DNA of 64,000 bases from a candidate division BRC1 bacterium HGW-BRC1-1 (GTDB taxonomy: Bacteria > Sumerlaeota > Sumerlaeia > Sumerlaeales > Sumerlaeaceae). Position 1 is the first letter of the stretch; the number at the start of each line of letters is the position of its first letter. This document shows positions 18,781 to 61,453 of the stretch, one piece after another. The notes below the pieces were generated by a model. It made no database searches and was not told the DNA's origin. It was given only the letters and a program-made list of their open reading frames with translations. Location: the NCBI GenBank assembly GCA_002842095.1, contig PHCB01000001.1, forward strand, positions 248,001 through 312,000, given 5' to 3'. The position numbers and the translations under genes were made by a program.

Positions 18781-20520
18781 TTAACCCAGGTTCGGTTTAT
18801 CCAAAAAATCCACAACAGGTTCTTTGACTCTTTCTAATTCAAACACAATAATCTCATTTACTCCTTTTCGAAGCAATGGTCCTGGAACATAAAGCGTTTT
18901 AGTCGGACCGATCTCCCAATAGCGACCGAGATTAAAACCATTTACAAAGACCACTCCCTTGCCCCAGCCCTCCGTAGACAAGAAGGCATCTGCTTCTTCA
19001 TCAACATTTAAAAAGCCTCTAAAAAATCCAGGTAGAGAAGCCGCTTCACCTTCTTCATAAACCAAGTTCGATAAATTGTTAAGAGGCAGAGTATGGATAG
19101 TCCATCCAAAAAGGAATTGGTTACCCAGGCGCACTCCTTGCGTTATTCCCTTTTCATCCCTCGAATAAGGCCCGTAGTTTACCCTCCCCAAGTTTTCAAC
19201 AAGGATATCCAGTTGAACACCACTCTCGGGAATATCAAATACGATTTTCTGATCCCCACCTCTTGAGTAGACTCCCCTATATTGCCCATCCAGGAATATC
19301 AATGCTCTATCATGAACATCTTGTATGAACAGTTCATTTGTTTTTCTGGGGCCTTTTACATGGGTTCTGTATAGGATAAACCCATAATCTTGTCCAAGCT
19401 TTTCCATAGTTTCCGGACAAGCGGTAATCACTGGCTCACACAATCTACTCAAGCTGTCGAACAAGCCTGCATGTTGAGTCAGCTCTATCTTTCCATAGGA
19501 TATTTTCTTTATGGCCGCCGGCATGATGCTTTTATCTACCTTTACGTATTTAGACAGCACCTCTTGAACGGCATAGTATTTATCCGTAGGGTCTCCACAT
19601 TCACTAACGGGAGAATCATAGTCATAACTGGTAACCGTGGGGATATACTTTTCAAATTTGTTAGCCCCATTATAAAATCCAAAGTTTGTACCACCGTGGA
19701 ACATATAGAAATTGACAGATCCGCCCATTTTCAGCATTCTTTCCAAAACTTCTGCAACGTCAGCCCCATCTCTCGTGTGATGGTCAACCCCCCAGTGATC
19801 GAACCATCCATTCCAATACTCCATACATACGAGTGGCTTGTCGGGTTGATATTCCCCCAGCTTTGCAAAGCTCTCTTCAGGCTGAGAGCCAAAGTTAGCT
19901 GTCATCAATACTCCATCCAAAGTTCCGGATTGCAGCATTCCATCCGTGGGCCCATCAGAGGTAAATAATAAAACATCCACCCCTCGTTTTACCAGTCCGT
20001 TTTTTACATACTCCAAATATCTCTTATCATTACCATAGCTGCCGTACTCATTTTCTACCTGCATAGCTATGATTGGCCCTCCATTGGTACAAAGGAGGGG
20101 CTTCAATCGAAACAACAGCTCATCAAAAAAGAGATCAACTCTTTCTAAATAGGGTTTGTGATAACAGCGTAACCGGATGTTAGAATCTGCCAGCAACCAG
20201 GAGGGTAGACCGCCAAACTCCCATTCAGCACATATGTATGGTCCCGGCCTCACGATTACCATTAGGCCCAGGTCATGGGCTATTTTGATAAACTCTTCGA
20301 TATCTGCAATTCCCTCGAAGCAAAACTTATCAGAACGAGGCTCGTGAATATTCCAAGCGACATAGGTCTCAACAGTATTAAATCCACATGCTTTTAGCTT
20401 AAGAAGCCTATCCTTCCAATATTCTGGTACTACTCGAAAGTAGTGAATAGAGCCGGATATTATCCTTACCGGTTTTCCCTCATACAAAAACTCTTTGCCC
20501 GAAATATCAAATATCGCCAA
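18781..20520 (-). CDS. Glycoside hydrolase family 35 beta-galactosidase
   Basis: GKPVRIISGSIHYFRVVPEYWKDRLLKLKACGFNTVETYVAWNIHEP, RPGPYICAEWEFGGLPSWLL, MQVENEYGSYG are GH35 hallmarks; TTG start with AAGGAGG RBS on the minus strand. Confidence 0.95.
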   Translation of the reverse strand: MAIFDISGKEFLYEGKPVRIISGSIHYFRVVPEYWKDRLLKLKACGFNTVETYVAWNIHEPRSDKFCFEGIADIEEFIKIAHDLGLMVIVRPGPYICAEWEFGGLPSWLLADSNIRLRCYHKPYLERVDLFFDELLFRLKPLLCTNGGPIIAMQVENEYGSYGNDKRYLEYVKNGLVKRGVDVLLFTSDGPTDGMLQSGTLDGVLMTANFGSQPEESFAKLGEYQPDKPLVCMEYWNGWFDHWGVDHHTRDGADVAEVLERMLKMGGSVNFYMFHGGTNFGFYNGANKFEKYIPTVTSYDYDSPVSECGDPTDKYYAVQEVLSKYVKVDKSIMPAAIKKISYGKIELTQHAGLFDSLSRLCEPVITACPETMEKLGQDYGFILYRTHVKGPRKTNELFIQDVHDRALIFLDGQYRGVYSRGGDQKIVFDIPESGVQLDILVENLGRVNYGPYSRDEKGITQGVRLGNQFLFGWTIHTLPLNNLSNLVYEEGEAASLPGFFRGFLNVDEEADAFLSTEGWGKGVVFVNGFNLGRYWEIGPTKTLYVPGPLLRKGVNEIIVFELERVKEPVVDFLDKPNLG

Positions 20521-51753: not shown

Positions 51754-52506
51754 ATGTGGCAAATTTATGACGAACTGATCGACAGCCTGCCCTGCGATCT
51801 GGTTGTCGGAGATTGTCAGGTGGGGCTCAACTGGACCCTTGTTCGCTCCCTTGGGATGGGCGTTTCCATGACCCCGCCCCATAACCACCACGAGGCTGTG
51901 ACCGATGCCGGATCGATCTCTGGCATGCCTGTCCGCAAAGTGGCGGAGCGAATCAAATCGTGGAGCAACCTCGACGCAGCCCTTGGCCTTGCCGCCATCA
52001 ACTCGGTCATTAATGCGCCCGTGACGTTCGATCGCAGCTTTGCGCCGTCGCAGGTTTTACCCGATGGCAACGTTTTCGAGACCATGCACGAGGAACTGCG
52101 TGGGCGAAAGGTGGCGCTGATCGGCCACTTTCGCGGGTTGGAGTCGCTGACAGACATCGCCGAATTGACCATACTCGAACGCGAGCCCATCGAGGGCGAT
52201 CTCCCCGATCCGGCCTGCGAGTACGTGCTCGCCGAGCAGGACACCATCTTTATCACCGCCACCACGCTGATCAACAAAACGCTGCCCCGCCTTCTCCAAC
52301 TGAGCCGCCATGCCTGCGTCATCCTCACCGGCCCCAGCGCGCCCTTATCACCGATCTTCTTCAACCATGGCGTCCACTATCTCGCCGGCCAAATCGTCCG
52401 GAATCCCGACGCTGTGTTGCGTCAGATCCGCGAAGGCGGACGGCATAACTTTGAAAACGACGTAACGCAGATGCTGACCCTGTCAGCCCGCGACCTCAAA
52501 CCATGA
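51754..52506 (+). CDS. DUF4213/DUF364 (putative heavy-metal chelation) protein
   Basis: LALGLAAINSVINAP-type region, KVALIGHFRGLESL, EREPIEGDLPDPACEYVLAEQDTIFITATTLINKTLPRLLQLS, VILTGPSAPLSPIFFNHGV. Confidence 0.85.
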   Translation: MWQIYDELIDSLPCDLVVGDCQVGLNWTLVRSLGMGVSMTPPHNHHEAVTDAGSISGMPVRKVAERIKSWSNLDAALGLAAINSVINAPVTFDRSFAPSQVLPDGNVFETMHEELRGRKVALIGHFRGLESLTDIAELTILEREPIEGDLPDPACEYVLAEQDTIFITATTLINKTLPRLLQLSRHACVILTGPSAPLSPIFFNHGVHYLAGQIVRNPDAVLRQIREGGRHNFENDVTQMLTLSARDLKP

Positions 52507-53522
52507 AGTCTCATCCGTGGGGAGTCACCACCCTGCTCGCAGCGGTGCTCGTGGCCACAGCGTTTCTCTCCCTTCTGCTGGGCCGCTATCCCATGTCGCT
52601 GTCAGAAGTGCTCGGCGCGTTGTCGAGCGGTTTTACGGGCAGCGAACGTGACGCCCACAGCGCGGCAGAAACCGTCCTGTTCAACGTGCGCCTGCCGCGC
52701 ATCATCGTGGCGACCTTCGTCGGCGCCGCCCTTGCCGCCTCGGGTGCTGCGTACCAGGGCATCTTCAAAAACCCGATGGTTTCTCCCGATCTCCTTGGCG
52801 CCTCCGCCGGGGCCAGCTTCGGCGTGGCGCTGGGCATCATGCTCGGCTTCCCGATGATCGGCATCCAGCTGGCCGCCTTCGCCACGGGCCTTCTCGCCGT
52901 GGGCATCACCGTCGCCATCAGCGCGCGCCTCGCCCGCGATCAGGATTCTATCCTCGTCATGGTGCTCTCGGGCATCGTAGTCGGCTCCATCTTCATGTCG
53001 TTCGTCACGCTCATCAAATCCGTGGCAGACCCCTACAGCAAACTCCCCGCCATAACCTTCTGGCTGATGGGCAGTCTCTCAGGCGTCACCTCTGCCGATG
53101 TCGGCCTTCTCGTGCTGCCCATGGTCATCGGCATCGTGCCGCTCTTCCTCCTGCGCTGGCGCATGAACGTGCTCTCGCTGGGTGACGAGGAAGCCCTCGC
53201 CCTCGGCATCAACACCACCCGACTACGTCTCATCGTCGTCGCCAGTTCCACCCTCATGATTGCCGCGTCCGTCTCCGTAAGCGGCGTCGTCGGATGGGTC
53301 GGCCTGGTCATCCCCCACTTCGCGCGGCTCCTCGTCGGCCCCGACTACCGCGCCCTCCTCCCCGCGTCGCTGCTCATCGGCGGCACGTACCTGCTACTCG
53401 TGGACGACGTAGCCCGCAGCGCCACCGCCACCGAAATCCCCCTCGGAGTGCTCACGTCCCTCATCGGCGCGCCGTTCTTCGTCTACCTCCTTGCCCGCGT
53501 GAAACGGGGATGGTGGGCATGA
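52503..53522 (+). CDS. FecCD-family (type II importer) ABC transporter permease
   Basis: VRLPRIIVATFVGAALAASGAAYQGIFKNPMVSPDLLGASAGASFGVALGI, SGVVGWVGLVIPHFARLLVGPDYRALLPASLLIGG. Confidence 0.95.
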   Translation: MKSHPWGVTTLLAAVLVATAFLSLLLGRYPMSLSEVLGALSSGFTGSERDAHSAAETVLFNVRLPRIIVATFVGAALAASGAAYQGIFKNPMVSPDLLGASAGASFGVALGIMLGFPMIGIQLAAFATGLLAVGITVAISARLARDQDSILVMVLSGIVVGSIFMSFVTLIKSVADPYSKLPAITFWLMGSLSGVTSADVGLLVLPMVIGIVPLFLLRWRMNVLSLGDEEALALGINTTRLRLIVVASSTLMIAASVSVSGVVGWVGLVIPHFARLLVGPDYRALLPASLLIGGTYLLLVDDVARSATATEIPLGVLTSLIGAPFFVYLLARVKRGWWA

Positions 53523-54316
53523 AGCTGCAATGCCACAACCTCACCTGCGGCTACGGCACCCGGGCCGTCACGCACGATGCCACCCTGGAGGTCTCCACCG
53601 GTGAAGTCGTCTGCCTGCTCGGCCCCAACGGCTCGGGCAAGACCACCCTCTTCAAAACTCTTTTGGGATTTCTTCGTCCCATGAGCGGCACCATCACCAT
53701 CGACGGGGCCGACATCACCCGCTGGACCCGCCCCCAGCTCGCCCGCGAGATTGCCTACGTGCCCCAGATGCACACGCCATCGTTTCCCTTCCGCGTGCTG
53801 GACGTCGTCATGATGGGCCGCAGCGCGCACCTCGGGCCGTTCACCTCCCCCACGCGCCACGACGAAGAAATCAGCGACGCCGCCGTGCGCGACGCTGGCA
53901 TGGCGCACCTGCGCGAGAAGCCCTACACCGAAATCAGCGGCGGCGAACGCCAGATGGTCCTCATCACCCGCGCCATGGTGCAGGAGGCGCGCCTGCTCAT
54001 CATGGACGAGCCGACCGCGAACCTCGACTACGGCAACCAGATGCGCGTACTCAGCCACATCCGCCAACTGGCGCAGCGCGGCATGGGCGTGCTCATGACC
54101 ACGCACTTCCCCAACCACGCCTTCATGTGCGCCGACCGCTGCGCCCTCATGCATCAGGGGCGCATCGAGGCCACGGGCCGCCCCGAGGATGTCATCACCG
54201 AAGATTCGCTGCAACAACTCTACGGCGTGCCAACGAGCATCCACCATCTGCGCAACGACACCGGCTCCGAGATGCGCGTCTGCGTGCCATCCATGGATTG
54301 GAAAATCACGCCATGA
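53519..54316 (+). CDS. FecE-type ABC transporter ATP-binding protein
   Basis: LLGPNGSGKTTLFKTLLGFL, ISGGERQMVLITRAMVQEARLLIMDEPTANLDYGNQ; ATG overlaps the permease stop. Confidence 0.96.
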   Translation: MKLQCHNLTCGYGTRAVTHDATLEVSTGEVVCLLGPNGSGKTTLFKTLLGFLRPMSGTITIDGADITRWTRPQLAREIAYVPQMHTPSFPFRVLDVVMMGRSAHLGPFTSPTRHDEEISDAAVRDAGMAHLREKPYTEISGGERQMVLITRAMVQEARLLIMDEPTANLDYGNQMRVLSHIRQLAQRGMGVLMTTHFPNHAFMCADRCALMHQGRIEATGRPEDVITEDSLQQLYGVPTSIHHLRNDTGSEMRVCVPSMDWKITP

Positions 54317-55407
54317 GGCCTGTATGGTTGTGCGCCTTTATCGCAGCTTTGCTTATGTGCGCGGCATCCGGTGCGGGGGCCGCGGGCAAGTCGGACGGCC
54401 CCACATCCCCCACCCGCACCATCACCGACATGGTGGGTCGCAAGGTGGAAATCCCCGCACAGATCAACAAGGTTTATTGTACCAGCCCCGTCGGGTCGAT
54501 CCTCGTCTATAGCCTCGCCCCCGAAAAACTGGCCGGATGGAATTACTCGTTCACTCCCGAGGAACGCACCTTCGTCGCCGAGCCCTACCGCGATCTGCCC
54601 ATTCTCGGCGGATGGTTCGGCAAGGGCAACTCGGGCAACATTGAGGAAATCCTCAGTTCCCATCCCGACGTAATCTTCAGCATGGGCACCACCGACACGA
54701 TGTCCATCACGCTCAGCGAGCGGCTGCAAACCCAGTCGTCCGTGCCGGTGCTGATGATGGGTGGCGCCCTCACTCATCTGGATGACGCTTACCTCTTCGC
54801 GGGGAAGGTGCTGGGCACAGAAGCGCGCGCCGCCGAGCTTGCGGATTATTGCACCCGAACCATCGCCGATGCCCGCCGCGCGGCAGCATCCATCCCGCGC
54901 GACAAGCGCGTTCGCGTCTATTACGCGGAAGGACCCAAGGGGCTGCAAACGGATCCTGCAGGATCCTACCACACCGAAATCCTCGACCTCGTGGGCGCGG
55001 TGAACGTAGCCGACGTGCCCGGCGGAAGCGGCTATGGGCGCGTCACCATCTCCCTCGAACAACTCATCGCGTGGAACCCCGAGGTCATCATCACCGGCTA
55101 CGAATATGGCCAGCGCCCCGACCTCGGCCTCGCCCGCCTGACCGCCGACCCAGCCTGGAACCAGCTTGCCGCCGTGAAAAAACGACAGGTGTACGAAACG
55201 CCCCACCTCCCCTTCAACTGGTTCGACCGCCCCCCCTCCGTGAACCGAATCCTCGGCATCCGGTGGATGGGAAACCTGCTCTATCCCGAGGTTTTTCGGG
55301 GCGACCTGCGACAGGAAACGCGCGACTTCTACGCCAAATTCTACCACACCCAGCTTACCGACGCGCAACTCAACGCCCTGCTGAAAGACGCCACCCGTGG
55401 CCGCTGA
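54313..55407 (+). CDS. Periplasmic ABC metal-binding protein (FecB/BtuF-like)
   Basis: Signal peptide; ITDMVGRKVEIPAQINKVYCTSP...IEEILSSHPDVIFSMG; ATGA overlap with the ATPase. Confidence 0.93.
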   Translation: MRPVWLCAFIAALLMCAASGAGAAGKSDGPTSPTRTITDMVGRKVEIPAQINKVYCTSPVGSILVYSLAPEKLAGWNYSFTPEERTFVAEPYRDLPILGGWFGKGNSGNIEEILSSHPDVIFSMGTTDTMSITLSERLQTQSSVPVLMMGGALTHLDDAYLFAGKVLGTEARAAELADYCTRTIADARRAAASIPRDKRVRVYYAEGPKGLQTDPAGSYHTEILDLVGAVNVADVPGGSGYGRVTISLEQLIAWNPEVIITGYEYGQRPDLGLARLTADPAWNQLAAVKKRQVYETPHLPFNWFDRPPSVNRILGIRWMGNLLYPEVFRGDLRQETRDFYAKFYHTQLTDAQLNALLKDATRGR

Positions 55408-56002
55408 CGACATAGCCCAAGCCGCCGCCCGGATCGCCTCAAACCCCAACGCCAACTGGATCCTGACCGGCCCCACCAACTCCGGAAAAAGCCACTTCCT
55501 CGAACGCCTCCTCGACCGGTTAAGTATCGAATTCCCGAATTGGAAAATCGGCGGCCTGCTAAGCCGCGGCGTATTCCTCAACAACGCGAAAATCGCCTAC
55601 CAGGGAATCGACTGTCTCAGCGGCCAACCGTTTCCACTAACCATCAAACGCGACCTCCCCGAAGAAGCGCAGCATTTTCTCGAACTTAATTTCGACACGC
55701 CCCCCTCCCCCGTCCAAGGTCAGCAAGTCGGCTCCTGGCTACTCTTAGACGAAGGCCTGACCCAAGCCACCGCCGCAATCCATGCCGCCATAACCGCCCG
55801 CTGCAACCTCGTGGTAATAGACGAATTCGGCCCCCTGGAAATCCAAGGCAAAGCCCTCCGCCCCGCCGCAGACGAATTACTGCAAGCAGGCCTACCCGCC
55901 CTGCTCGTAGTTCGCGAAAAGCTGTTGGAGGAAGTTCTAAGCTTATACCCTTACTGTAATTTCACACCCCTTCAAAAGTCAGAACCAGTTGATTTCTTGT
56001 AA
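55397..56002 (+). CDS. THEP1/DUF2478-like P-loop NTPase
   Basis: WILTGPTNSGKSHFLERLL Walker A, IGGLLSRGVF, NLVVIDEFGPLEIQGKAL (Walker B-like); GTG start overlaps the upstream gene. Confidence 0.78.
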   Translation: MAADDIAQAAARIASNPNANWILTGPTNSGKSHFLERLLDRLSIEFPNWKIGGLLSRGVFLNNAKIAYQGIDCLSGQPFPLTIKRDLPEEAQHFLELNFDTPPSPVQGQQVGSWLLLDEGLTQATAAIHAAITARCNLVVIDEFGPLEIQGKALRPAADELLQAGLPALLVVREKLLEEVLSLYPYCNFTPLQKSEPVDFL

Positions 56003-56036
56003 AAAAAGCCCCGGAGGATGCTGCTCCTCCGGGGCT
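56001..56036 (-). terminator. Hairpin terminator AGCCCCGGAGGA-TGCTGC-TCCTCCGGGGCT with A-tract
   Basis: Perfect 12-bp stem at 56007-56036; AAAAAA on the left acts as a T-run for the minus-strand gene. Confidence 0.85.
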
Positions 56037-56068
56037 CAGAGCTTCAACTGAAGCTGCCAGACGTAGAT

Positions 56069-56623
56069 TTATTTCTTTTCTGACAGCATGGTTTGCAGAT
56101 ACGTGTCTGCATTTTCGTTAAACTTCCTAATGCAGCCATCACAGCACAGCCCTACCTCGTAACCCTTATAATCGACCTTCGACCCTTTCTGCATGGATCC
56201 GACGGCCTTTCCACTTACCGGGCATGTTTTATTGTTAAGAGGTGTTGTGGCGTTGCTTTGCGGTTTCGACTCAACGGGGCTGGTCTTCTTGGACTTCATA
56301 GCCTTGTCGAGAAAGACGTCTGGATCTTTATTAAAATCCTTCTCGCAGCCCGAGCAACACAGGTTAACCTCGTGGCCCTTATAGACGACTTTTTCGCCGC
56401 CCCCCTCAATCGGGTCGCCACTAACGGGGCAAATTGCATTGTTTACAGCACGGTTTTTTGTGGCGGTTGTCAGGGCATTCGTTTTCGTGGCGGTGGACTG
56501 CAGTTCACTGGTACTCGACATTTTCTGCATGTTCATGTGGTGCTGGTGATCCTGGGCCTGTGCGTTGATATTTACAGCAAGCGTTAAAACTGCTGCGATA
56601 GTGAGTGTGACGATTCTCTTCAT
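56069..56623 (-). CDS. Secreted tandem YHS/TRASH-type metal-binding protein
   Basis: Signal peptide; CPVSGDPIEGGGEKVVYKGHEVNLCCSGCEKDFNKDPDVFL and CPVSGKAVGSMQKGSKVDYKGYEVGLCCDGCIRKFNENADTYL. Confidence 0.9.
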   Translation of the reverse strand: MKRIVTLTIAAVLTLAVNINAQAQDHQHHMNMQKMSSTSELQSTATKTNALTTATKNRAVNNAICPVSGDPIEGGGEKVVYKGHEVNLCCSGCEKDFNKDPDVFLDKAMKSKKTSPVESKPQSNATTPLNNKTCPVSGKAVGSMQKGSKVDYKGYEVGLCCDGCIRKFNENADTYLQTMLSEKK

Positions 56624-56793
56624 TTTAGATTATCCTTATAATAGTGCAGGGGGAAATATATTAACGGGCGGAGCAAGGCTTGGTCGATGCCAGACCCTGC
56701 TATTGCACCTGCATGATTTCCGGCAAACATCCCCTAAACGGGAGGTCACCACAGAAGAAATGGATTGGGCGCAATTCTTCCTTGGCGGCTATC

Positions 56794-57201
56794 TCATAGC
56801 CTGAGAGAACGGTTTACGATAAACTTTGCGCATCCGTAGGCCATCGGCTGCGGCAAACCCTCGAGCGAGAGCCCTCTAAACAGTTCCCTGGGTAAAACCG
56901 CGGTAGGGATAAGAAGATTTTTTCCACTGTCGATTTTAACCAAGTTGCTGGCAGGGGCCGGAGCAACCGGGAGTTCTTCTTCGCCCGAATCACAAAGGCA
57001 TTGACCTTGAGCGCAATGCCCGCTGCAACACTGCGCCCCACAAGTAGCTGACCGGCATGGAGAAGAAGCGGGCGAGGTAGCGGGGCACGATGTTCGAGCT
57101 TCCCGATTCGGTTGCGATTGCGGACTCAGATGATCAGGGCAAGCAGCACCTACAGCCGCGAGACACAAAATCCAAATCATCGGAATGAAGCGCAATATCA
57201 T
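56794..57201 (-). CDS. Small Cys-rich secreted hypothetical protein
   Basis: Signal peptide; CPATSPASSPCRSATCGAQCCSGHCAQGQCLC. Confidence 0.5.
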   Translation of the reverse strand: MILRFIPMIWILCLAAVGAACPDHLSPQSQPNREARTSCPATSPASSPCRSATCGAQCCSGHCAQGQCLCDSGEEELPVAPAPASNLVKIDSGKNLLIPTAVLPRELFRGLSLEGLPQPMAYGCAKFIVNRSLRL

Positions 57202-57240
57202 ACCAATTCTAAGATCATCCTGAGTAAAAATTCAAAGCTA

Positions 57241-57256
57241 CGGCGAGCGCTCGCCG
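57241..57256. promoter_or_regulatory. Perfect 16-bp palindrome CGGCGAGCGCTCGCCG in the divergent copper-island intergenic region
   Basis: Direct reading. Confidence 0.4.
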
Positions 57257-57368
57257 GGTTGGGATTTTTCGAAATCGCTCAGTTCATCCAGAGAGAGCGA
57301 AAATAATACTTTGACTTCAACCTCACACGTTCTCGACGCTTTATCACTTCCTTCGGAGGACGATTTCC

Positions 57369-58004
57369 ATGGTGCCCGTCAAAATTTTTATTCTCGGCTT
57401 GAGCGCATGCCCCCTCCTCCTCATCGCCTGCGCAACTCAGCCGATTTATGTTCCCCTTTCCCCCTCGCATCCTGCAAGTCCCTGGGCCTGCGAAACTCCT
57501 CAACCTCCCCCGTCCACCACACTGGCCATCCATAAATCTGAAATTGTCCCAGCCAATCCCGATTGGCAGATTGCGGGCATACGCGACAACGAATTCCACG
57601 GTCACGCCGCTGGACAACCTTCCACAATGGACATGATGGGGCAAGGCCACATGATGATGGATAGTAGCAGCCCCGCGAAGAAAACGAAAGCACCGGGCAT
57701 GATAAAGATGTCAGCGCCCGCCGATAAAGTCGATTACACCCCCCAAAATGCAGAGAGCCCCCAAGCGACAAGTCCCGCCGAACACGAGCCTGAACGACAT
57801 CTGGATCACGCTGCCCCGGATAGAAAAGAAACCGGATACCAGGCGGCACCCATTGCTCCACCGATGGATCAGATGGGGAACATGGACCACATGAACCACA
57901 TGGCCCCCGAAAAGGCTCCAGCCAGCGAAATGAAAATGGACCCGAATAGTGATAAGCCGGCGAAAACAGAACCCGTCTTGGATCACAGTCAGCATGAACA
58001 ATAA
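57369..58004 (+). CDS. Met/His-rich putative copper-binding lipoprotein
   Basis: Lipobox LLLIAC; MDMMGQGHMMMD, MDQMGNMDHMNHMAPEKAPASEMKMD, HSQHEQ. Confidence 0.75.
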   Translation: MVPVKIFILGLSACPLLLIACATQPIYVPLSPSHPASPWACETPQPPPSTTLAIHKSEIVPANPDWQIAGIRDNEFHGHAAGQPSTMDMMGQGHMMMDSSSPAKKTKAPGMIKMSAPADKVDYTPQNAESPQATSPAEHEPERHLDHAAPDRKETGYQAAPIAPPMDQMGNMDHMNHMAPEKAPASEMKMDPNSDKPAKTEPVLDHSQHEQ

Positions 58005-59607
58005 CCGCTGTTTCATTTCCGCAAGAGGGGGCACGAAACGTTCAAGTACCATCGTTGGTTTTATTTTCATTCTGTTTCTGGTTCAGCCCGTTGCGATGTC
58101 CGTTGCTGCTCCCGCCCCCGGAGCGGATGCCATGCAAGACATACAAAACGTCACCACCGGTCGAACTGGCTATAAGCTCGCACCCGTAAACGAAGCCCAG
58201 TGTGAAGAAACTATCCAATACGCCATCTCATGCCTGCTCGAAAACTCCCTCTCCAAAGATGAAGCAGTCCAGATAGCCCTTCTCAATAATCGTGAACTCC
58301 AGGCCCGCCTCGCCGACCTTGGCATAGCTCGAGGAGATCTTATCGATGCCGGCCTTCTTAAAAATCCGCTCCTCGATTTCCTCTACCGCAAATCCAATGC
58401 TCCTGACACCCTTGCCAATCTCGAATGGAGTGTCACCCTCGACTTTTTGAATCTCCTTACACTTCCCTTACGCCGTGCTATTGCCGCTTCCGAATTTGAA
58501 ACAACCAAACTCGAAATCGCCAATGACGTTCTGAACCTTGCATTCGATGTCCAGTCTGCTTACTATAATTTGCAGGCTGCCACTCAGGCTGGGAAGATGT
58601 ATCAGGCAGCCGTCAACGCCTCAAAAGCAGCGTACGACGGAGCCCAAGTTCTCCACGAGGCCGGTAATATTACTGATTTGGCTTTCCACCAGGAACAGGC
58701 CATCTATGAGGAGCAAAAGCTTCTTTTAGCTGAAGCTGAGACGGAGACTGTAGCCCTTCGCGAAGAGCTCAACATGCTCATGGGACTTTGGGGGAATCAG
58801 GTCGCGTGGAAAATCCCTGACAAATTGCCGGAAATGCCAGCTCGTGAATTCCAGGGAGCGGGGCTTGAGTCCGTCGCCGTCTATCAACGATTGGATCTTG
58901 CATCAATCCGACAGGATATCGAGACCCTCGCCAGAGAATCCGGTCTTCAGGATGCTACGCGGCTCTTGCCCGAACTCTCCGGACAATTCGCAGCAGAGCG
59001 CGATACAGACGGGTCGTGGCTTCGCGGGGGTGGCGTGTCGCTTCCCATTCCACTTTTCAATCAGGGACAAGGCCGAGTCCTGAAGGCACAGGCAAAGCTG
59101 AATCAAGCGCGCCATCGCTATTACGCCAAAGCAGTCAACATCCGTTCAGAAGTGCGTAAAGCTTTCGCCCAGATGCGCAAAAATCGCGAGCGCGTTCGCT
59201 ATTACGATAAAATCATGCTGCCTCTGCGCAAACGTATGGTTGAAGAATCTCATCTTCTTTTCAACAGCATGGATGTGAGCCCCTTTGAACTGCTTGCATC
59301 AAAGCGCGAAGAGATTAATGCTCAGCGCGATCGAACGGAAGCCCTTCGCGCCTATTGGGTAGCTCGCTCAGACCTTGAACGCGCCTTGGGGGGAAGCTTT
59401 CAGTGCTATACCGGCCCGAACTCCACACCCCCCAATGAAGGCTCACAATCTAACGATAAAATCCGAAAAAGAATTCCGTCAGGTGACGCTCCCTCAGGGA
59501 CCGCAAACCCAAACAGCGGTGGTTCAGCGACTGGTAAAGCTGGTACTGATGGTTCGGGCACGGCTGCCACGGGGTCTGTGGCTGCGAGTTCAGGAGGCGC
59601 AATATGA
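57994..59607 (+). CDS. TolC-family outer-membrane protein
   Basis: VQIALLNNRELQARLADLGIARGDLIDAGLLKNPLLD; PIPLFNQGQGRVLKAQAKLNQARHRYYAKAVNIRSEVRKA. ATG at 57994 overlaps the upstream stop. Confidence 0.92.
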   Translation: MNNNRCFISARGGTKRSSTIVGFIFILFLVQPVAMSVAAPAPGADAMQDIQNVTTGRTGYKLAPVNEAQCEETIQYAISCLLENSLSKDEAVQIALLNNRELQARLADLGIARGDLIDAGLLKNPLLDFLYRKSNAPDTLANLEWSVTLDFLNLLTLPLRRAIAASEFETTKLEIANDVLNLAFDVQSAYYNLQAATQAGKMYQAAVNASKAAYDGAQVLHEAGNITDLAFHQEQAIYEEQKLLLAEAETETVALREELNMLMGLWGNQVAWKIPDKLPEMPAREFQGAGLESVAVYQRLDLASIRQDIETLARESGLQDATRLLPELSGQFAAERDTDGSWLRGGGVSLPIPLFNQGQGRVLKAQAKLNQARHRYYAKAVNIRSEVRKAFAQMRKNRERVRYYDKIMLPLRKRMVEESHLLFNSMDVSPFELLASKREEINAQRDRTEALRAYWVARSDLERALGGSFQCYTGPNSTPPNEGSQSNDKIRKRIPSGDAPSGTANPNSGGSATGKAGTDGSGTAATGSVAASSGGAI

Positions 59608-60974
59608 TTTCTCGTCGCAATCTTATCTTAACGGGAGCGGCTCTCGCAGGCGGAACGCTTCTTAATCCTCCCGGTCAGATCCTCGCGCAAACGCCCAGCA
59701 TGGGCGATAAAAACGTCACAGATCCCGACTCCGTCCAGTCCACTGTCAATGTTGGCAATCGAACCTTCTCTCCGGGAAAGCCCGGAGTAGATTACAGACC
59801 GGTTGTTACCCCCAATCTTCCAACTTTACCCTGGCAGATTGTGAACGGCATCAAGGTTTTTCATCTCGTGGTGGAAGAAATGTGGCATGAGTTTACTCCC
59901 GGCCTCGAAGCCATCTGCTGGGGGTATAATGGTCATGTCCACGGACCCACTCTGGAAGCCGTCGAAGGGGACCGCGTACGCATTTATGTGACAAATAAAC
60001 TCAAGGCCCCCACGACCATTCATTGGCATGGTTTTCTACTGCCAAACGGGATGGATGGTGTCGGCGGTTTGACCCAAAAGCTCATTAACTCCGGCCAAAC
60101 CTTCAAATACGAATTCACCCTCCGTCAGCATGGCAGCCTTATGTATCATTCCCACCACGATGAAATGACACAGATGGGCATGGGACTCATGGGCTCTTTC
60201 ATTATCCATCCCCGTGAGCCTGTATGGGATCCACCGGATCGCGACTTCGTCTTCATGTTGAGTGAATGGAGATTGGACAATGGCACCTATCGACCCAATA
60301 TCATGGAAATGTCGGACTTCAATCTTCTGACTTTCAACGCCAAAGCTTTCCCCGGTACCGAGCCCCTTGTGGTAAAATCTGGTGAACGTGTGCGCATACG
60401 GATTGGAAACCTCAGCGCCATTGATAACCACCCGATCCACCTGCACGGACATTCATTCACGGTCATGGAAACCGACGGTGGACGGATTCCTGAATCGGCC
60501 CGCTGGCCTGAAACAACGATGTTCGTTCCAGTCGGAACCACAAGAACGATTGAATTCGTTGCGGGGGCACCTGGAGATTGGCCCCTCCATTGCCATATGA
60601 CCCACCACACCATGAATCAAATGGGACACAACACCCCCAACACCGTCGGCGTAAGGAACGCCGCGTATGACAAAGAGGTCCAGAAAATTATTCCCGGATA
60701 CATGACCATGGGTTCTGAAGGCATGGGTGACATGGGAATGATGCACATGGCCATGCCTGAAAACTCAGTGGCTATGATGGGAGCCTATGGTCCCTTCGAT
60801 TATATCACAATGGGCGGCATGTTTACAGTTCTCAAGGTGCGTGAAAACGACCCTTCTCTGAAAGAAGATGCGAGCGGAAAAATCACAGATCCCGGCTGGT
60901 ACCAGCATCCGGAAGGTACAATCGCAGGCCCCGCCAGTGTGGACGAGTTGAATCAAGATGGGATTAAGGTCTGA
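59604..60974 (+). CDS. TAT-exported multicopper oxidase (copper-oxidase type)
   Basis: SRRNLILTGAALAGG Tat-like signal; TIHWHGFLLPNGMDG, YHSHHDEMTQMGMGLMG, HPIHLHGHSF, PLHCHMTHHTMNQM copper ligand motifs. Confidence 0.95.
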   Translation: MISRRNLILTGAALAGGTLLNPPGQILAQTPSMGDKNVTDPDSVQSTVNVGNRTFSPGKPGVDYRPVVTPNLPTLPWQIVNGIKVFHLVVEEMWHEFTPGLEAICWGYNGHVHGPTLEAVEGDRVRIYVTNKLKAPTTIHWHGFLLPNGMDGVGGLTQKLINSGQTFKYEFTLRQHGSLMYHSHHDEMTQMGMGLMGSFIIHPREPVWDPPDRDFVFMLSEWRLDNGTYRPNIMEMSDFNLLTFNAKAFPGTEPLVVKSGERVRIRIGNLSAIDNHPIHLHGHSFTVMETDGGRIPESARWPETTMFVPVGTTRTIEFVAGAPGDWPLHCHMTHHTMNQMGHNTPNTVGVRNAAYDKEVQKIIPGYMTMGSEGMGDMGMMHMAMPENSVAMMGAYGPFDYITMGGMFTVLKVRENDPSLKEDASGKITDPGWYQHPEGTIAGPASVDELNQDGIKV

Positions 60975-61260
60975 AATCTCGGTGAATTGAATCGTAACTG
61001 CGGAAAACCCTCCCGCTGCCTCGGAGTTTACACAGTTTGTTGGTTGTCTCCGCAGAGCAGGAAAAAGTCCCAGATGGCCTGCAAGTCGAAGCATCTGCTC
61101 CCCCGATATTTTACCGAGTTTTCTGGCGGTGCCGCCCATGAACAAGGTGAAGAGAAAACAAGAATCAGGTATTATGGGCAGTCAAAAGCGAAAGGCACAT
61201 CTCACCACAAGGTAATTGAGTCACGAAAGGATGCAACATCAGGTCGGGCATTTTGGGGGC

Positions 61261-61292
61261 TTGCACACCGGTTGCACACCGGTTGCACACCG
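61261..61292. repeat. Three tandem copies of the 11-bp unit TTGCACACCGG (third truncated)
   Basis: TTGCACACCGGTTGCACACCGGTTGCACACCG read directly. Confidence 0.85.
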
Positions 61293-61359
61293 ACGAAAAG
61301 CTGGGGCGAGATGCCGACTTTCGGAGTCCTCAATTGAAAGAATATCGTCAGTAAAACCA

Positions 61360-61453
61360 TGGCGGAGAGGCGGGGATTCGAACCCCGGAAACCGGGTTTA
61401 AACGGTTTAACCGCTTTCGAGGCGGTCGCCTTCAACCACTCGGCCACCTCTCC
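61360..61453 (-). tRNA. tRNA-Ser (anticodon CGA), CCA encoded
   Basis: Minus strand GGAGAGGTGGCCGAGTGGTTGAAGGCGACCGCCTCGAAAGCGGTTAAACCG...GGGGTTCGAATCCCCGCCTCTCCGCCA; anticodon loop CTCGAAA, long variable arm. Confidence 0.96.

Follow-up and report, generated by a model that had tools for sequence, protein, structure and literature searches.

Background

In Myxococcus xanthus, the outer-membrane efflux gene MXAN_3424 adjoins the multicopper oxidase (MCO) gene cuoB (MXAN_3425), copper-induced under the sigma factor CorE (PMC3107203). Tn5 disruption of a tolC, and likewise of an MCO gene, made Bradyrhizobium copper-sensitive (PMC5057107), orthology with the genes described here not being implied. 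Among the oxidases themselves, type B two-domain MCOs (2dMCOs) have been defined by how their copper ligands are laid out, and two-domain oxidases are able to oxidise phenols too (both PMC13151041).

The window considered here is the whole 64,000-nucleotide stretch of DNA that was analysed, located on contig C8 of a 3.77 Mb genome in 34 contigs from a sparsely sampled lineage. Within it, five adjoining low-GC genes form a coding block at 56069–60974, encoding a tandem YHS protein, a small Cys-rich protein, a Met/His-rich lipoprotein, a TolC-family channel and a two-domain MCO. The M. xanthus pair shares with this block an outer-membrane efflux gene beside an MCO gene (a likeness of arrangement, with orthology not implied), but M. 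xanthus copper region 2 differs in that further copper genes and the sigma factor CorE are encoded nearby. Plasmid pairs (Caballeronia p3, Roseobacter pRLO149_83) likewise have TolC directly upstream of an MCO, which is ~50–54% identical to that of the block. These copper-resistance plasmids differ in carrying CopC/CopD, P-type ATPase, cupredoxins or copper-binding proteins, and the small protein upstream of their TolC differs from the HPANP-type lipoprotein described below.

The CopAB/PcoAB systems also combine a periplasmic MCO with an outer-membrane protein and have Met-rich segments, but CopB is not a TolC-type channel, unlike the outer-membrane protein of the block. The block MCO was rejected as a three-domain CopA/PcoA (TIGR01480, 162 bits against a cut-off of 478.95), and membership of CopABCD/PcoABCD was rejected given that CopB, CopC and CopD domains are absent from the block's proteins. 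CusCFBA shares a TolC-type outer-membrane factor, the fold of the block's channel matching CusC and SilC, but differs in that CusA, CusB and CusF are absent from the block. Membership of CusCBA was also rejected: the block holds no RND or MFP gene, the RND and MFP genes found 105 kb away have no TolC gene beside them, and that RND lacks the Met triad of CusA.

Organization and limits of the gene block

The initial annotation had placed a copper-handling island at 56001–61359. Its five named genes were all confirmed as ORFs where they had been placed, and the gene content was retained, but not the downstream limit: coding ends at 60974, and about 60985–61326 is a copy of a dispersed intergenic repeat (no strand assigned) with an 11-bp tandem core, CGGTGTGCAAC, present three times at 61261–61292. 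Because this repeat fills much of the sequence up to 61359, the coding block was set at 56069–60974. The repeat gave 109 + 98 = 207 overlapping matches genome-wide, compared with 0 for a control with the pattern reversed; seven genomes of the same family gave essentially none. The tandem core comprises ~3–8 units per copy and the flanks are partly conserved among copies (also L118, L151–L170). The copy at ~60985–61326 is probably host sequence lying outside the copper module. Downstream of the repeat are a tRNA-Ser(CGA) gene (61360–61453) and then mdh.

The YHS gene and the Cys-rich ORF occupy the minus strand and diverge from the plus-strand lipoprotein, TolC and MCO genes. The lipoprotein ORF ends at 58004 and the TolC ATG is at 57994, giving an exact 11-nt overlap, and the TolC/MCO junction is an ATGA (59604–59607), giving an exact 4-nt overlap. 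Both overlaps are as first reported and support a single operon of lipoprotein, TolC and MCO genes. A strong terminator-like hairpin (56006–56037, 13 pairs, T tail on the minus strand) follows the YHS gene, and no CueR, CopR or CorE-type regulator was identified within the block.

The lower GC and weaker C-ending codon bias ascribed to the block were borne out, with GC of 0.49–0.55 and GC3 of 0.50–0.59 in the block genes versus 0.57–0.65 and 0.64–0.80 in typical neighbours within the window. Elsewhere in the window, the 579-aa minus-strand ORF at 18781–20520 is another likely foreign gene (GC 0.43 and GC3 0.41 inside a 0.60-GC region), the N-terminus of which we take to resemble a family 35 beta-galactosidase. 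The genes directly upstream of the block (52503–55999) encode a FecCD-type permease, an ABC ATPase, a periplasmic binding protein and then an NTPase_1/DUF2478 protein, and constitute a metal or cofactor uptake cluster.

Multicopper oxidase

The MCO gene (59604–60974, plus strand) encodes 456 aa with a Tat-like signal, two domains, a single T1 site in domain 2 and a Met-rich C-terminal region. The protein scores above cut-off for three Cu-oxidase models. Its T1 ligands (H276, C330, H335 and M340) are all in domain 2, and the trinuclear-site His are H140/142/182/184/279/281/329/331; all 12 copper ligands are invariant across 33 homologues. Only two Cys (C105 and C330) are present. Also invariant in the 33 homologues are six Met of the C-terminal region (M367, M369, M374, M382, M391 and M403), which makes this Met-rich terminus a plausible Cu(I)-binding feature. 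The SRRNLIL motif suggests export via Tat. In the predicted monomer model (mean pLDDT 74.5), two domains are supported and the C-terminal region is poorly ordered; its closest structural match was the two-domain laccase 2zwn.

With two cupredoxin domains, T1 in domain 2 only and eight His, the protein has the type B two-domain layout. Type B enzymes as a class are homotrimers whose trinuclear site lies between subunits. It shares with the type B MCOs SLAC and Cellvibrio CjMCO the two cupredoxin domains and a sole T1 site in the C-terminal domain, but is set apart from both by its long conserved Met-rich C-terminal region and its constant pairing with TolC. The copper handling and the periplasmic oxidise-and-sequester chemistry put forward in the initial annotation are supported, and we infer that the MCO oxidises Cu(I).

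TolC channel and lipoprotein

The channel gene (57994–59607, plus strand) encodes a TolC-family outer-membrane factor of 537 aa, counted from the ATG at 57994. It matches PF02321 in two stretches (100.3 bits, cut-off 22), corresponding to two OEP repeats, and its predicted fold (mean pLDDT 82) combines long helices with paired beta strands as in a canonical outer-membrane factor, which places it in the TolC family. Foldseek matched the model to TolC, SilC and CusC (E 5e-15 to 1e-14, identity ~15–18%), and a PDB sequence search returned no solved sequence relative. At the lipidation column of the TolC alignment, this protein has Ala, with Cys in 23 of the 28 aligned sequences.

The lipoprotein gene (57369–58004, plus strand) encodes 211 aa including 16 Met and 12 His, with an LIAC lipobox followed by SHPASP. 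Scans against Pfam and NCBIfam gave no match, and neither did a sequence search of the PDB. A lipoprotein with an HPANP-like motif was present upstream of TolC at 34 of 52 testable loci, as against 2 of 453 random control positions. The recurrent build is an HPANPxA-like motif soon after the lipid Cys and then a Met/His-rich tail or, often, HMBD or DUF3347, the latter two being metal domains associated with CusB-type adaptors. By its motif, the SHPASP protein of the block matches this recurrent HPANP-type family, and the recurrence lends the third gene an identity at family level that was not to be had from Pfam or NCBIfam.

YHS protein and Cys-rich ORF

The first gene (56069–56623, minus strand) encodes a secreted tandem YHS/TRASH-domain protein of 184 aa with two CPVSG...CCxGC units, matching PF04945 (43.1 bits, cut-off 30.3) and PF24273 (28.4 bits, cut-off 27) in Pfam. 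It is the sole YHS match across the genome and a putative copper-binding protein. YHS proteins were present at 9 of 86 related loci, seven of them in Planctomycetota, and at one locus (L008) the gene order is YHS, lipoprotein, TolC, MCO.

The small ORF beside it (56794–57201, minus strand), recognised from sequence, would encode 135 aa with 11 Cys and a signal-peptide-like N-terminus. With no Pfam or NCBIfam match and no homologue among the 86 related loci, this uncertain gene is the least certain of the five.

Recurrence across phyla

The 86 loci compared comprised 80 from named genomes, plus three further genomes and three plasmids; the 80 represent Myxococcota, Planctomycetota, Verrucomicrobiota, Poribacteria, Pseudomonadota, KSB1 and others. 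A TolC homologue was present at 79 of the 86 MCO loci. Where it was missing, the contig started at or near the oxidase (six loci) or insertion-sequence genes lay upstream (the Ciceribacter plasmid). In a well-flanked subset of 48 loci, defined by 5 kb or more of sequence to either side of the MCO, TolC was adjacent to the MCO in 47. Within 5 kb of the MCO in these 48 loci, an RND was found at 12, an MFP at four and a copper-type ATPase at 18. The absence of a pump, which the initial annotation had regarded as unusual, is therefore typical of such loci, and the neighbourhood comparison that it had proposed showed the TolC–MCO pairing to be kept across many phyla.

One Myxococcus locus (L021) has the order lipoprotein, TolC, MCO with a 4-nt overlap at each junction, and the MCOs of Myxococcus genomes with this arrangement are ~62–63% identical to that of the block. 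Two adjoining, convergent TolC–MCO pairs occur in Pyxidicoccus (L011) and Myxococcus (L015), which suggests duplication or specialisation there. The lipoprotein–TolC–2dMCO set recurs as one unit in many phyla, with a lipoprotein family of its own, and the block has its HPANP-like lipoprotein, TolC, MCO and overlapping starts. A literature search for a named TolC–MCO–lipoprotein module found none, with most subscription journals outside its coverage.

Probable acquisition

None of the seven same-family genomes searched, of which five are at least 92% complete, carries the MCO, and a close homologue was found in only two of 31 other genomes of the class. Because of this absence from the family and the foreign composition, the block was probably acquired horizontally, and recently in this lineage. 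Integration of an island at the tRNA gene, which abuts the region, was considered and rejected: neither a second copy of the tRNA-Ser 3′ end nor an integrase-like ORF was found, which leaves no trace of insertion at this site, and the nearby 11-bp repeat is dispersed through the genome. The mdh gene is present in all eight family genomes including that of the window, and tRNA-Ser lies beside it in three relatives; the other flank of mdh/tRNA-Ser is not syntenic, and no empty site could be shown in the relatives. An MCO tree gave no supported donor and placed the window's MCO in an unresolved part, weakly with another same-class genome.

Pumps elsewhere in the genome

The statement that Cus/Cop pumps are lacking is true for the window, but the genome has both a CopA-type ATPase, on contig C1 (TIGR01511 615 bits, cut-off 397), and a CusA/CzcA-family RND with an MFP. 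A Zn/Cd-type ATPase is encoded on contig C9. In total, five RND pumps, an ABC exporter and only three TolC genes were found.

The CusA/CzcA-family RND lies on the same contig at C8:196–201 kb, ~105 kb upstream of the block (TIGR00914 717.7 bits, cut-off 701.45), and no TolC gene was found beside this RND and its MFP. Its set (L112:7489–13373) is operon-like on one strand, with genes for a Cys/His-rich 146-aa secreted protein, the MFP, the RND and a His-rich 185-aa protein. At the three CusA positions that we take to be its copper-binding methionines (M573/M623/M672), the aligned residues of the C8 RND are A, N and H. Given these substitutions, the RND probably does not pump Cu(I)/Ag(I) as CusA does. 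The block's TolC had been described as having no visible inner-membrane partner; the genome search for RND/MFP partners proposed at that time yielded this pair, which has no TolC gene beside it and could partner the channel, though its RND lacks the methionines of CusA.

Discussion

We consider it somewhat probable that the block is a horizontally acquired copper-detoxification unit built on the widespread lipoprotein–TolC–2dMCO module. Copper would reach the periplasm, partly delivered by the CopA-type ATPase encoded elsewhere, where the YHS protein and the Met/His lipoprotein would catch it. The oxidase, exported via Tat and Met-rich at its conserved C-terminus, would turn Cu(I) into less harmful Cu(II), and TolC would serve as an outer-membrane exit duct. 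The channel is probably recruited by RND/MFP pumps encoded elsewhere, because three TolC genes must suffice for five RND pumps and the ABC exporter. For this reading, we infer copper induction, the partner of TolC and the route of acquisition.

A possible but doubtful alternative is that TolC is the outer-membrane partner of the RND/MFP pair at C8:196–201 kb, the block being a piece of a scattered CusCBA/CzcCBA-like system together with an oxidase. That RND is above the CusA/CzcA cut-off and is accompanied by an MFP with no TolC adjoining, in a genome where one of the few TolC genes is already within a MacAB-like cluster. However, replacement of the Met triad by A/N/H makes copper an unlikely substrate, the channel pairs across phyla with the MCO and not with RND/MFP, and another TolC (contig C22) is free for this RND. 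It appears improbable that the route is self-contained, such that TolC works directly with the MCO and lipoprotein, no energised pump being involved, and Cu(II) is either let out or retained at the outer membrane. TolC proteins whose function is known operate, to our knowledge, with an adaptor driven from the inner membrane, which counts against such a route, as does the availability of distant RNDs in the genome for the block's TolC. For it speak the observation that MCO and TolC are almost never apart, mostly without an MFP or RND nearby, the trimeric state of both TolC proteins and type B 2dMCOs (PMC13151041) and the binding of the E. coli lipoprotein YbjP to the periplasmic face of TolC (PMC13082787).

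As a speculation to which we give very little credence, an MCO trimer might dock against the TolC trimer at its periplasmic end, and the lipoprotein might form a collar that catches copper. Such an assembly would oxidise and vent without a pump, Cu(I) being oxidised at the channel mouth and Cu(II) leaving through TolC. Since the lipid-anchor Cys of TolC is lost (Ala), the lipoprotein might also anchor TolC, as YbjP does for E. coli TolC. There is also only a slim chance that the MCO acts mainly on phenolics or on iron/manganese, the copper binding of its neighbours merely loading the enzyme. A Cellvibrio type B 2dMCO does act as a laccase (PMC13151041), but the conserved Met-rich region, the Met/His lipoprotein and the YHS protein argue against a non-copper substrate, as do neighbourhoods that often include copper ATPases, CopC/CopD or CusB-type HMBD/DUF3347 domains.

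Conclusions

The best reading is that the block is a new case of a widespread, thinly described lipoprotein–TolC–2dMCO module, the genes of which annotators label separately as "TolC family protein", "copper oxidase" and "hypothetical protein". What drives, or vents through, a TolC that is paired constantly with an oxidase rather than with a pump is now a testable question, and the window brings in a lineage with little sampling, where the module looks recently acquired.
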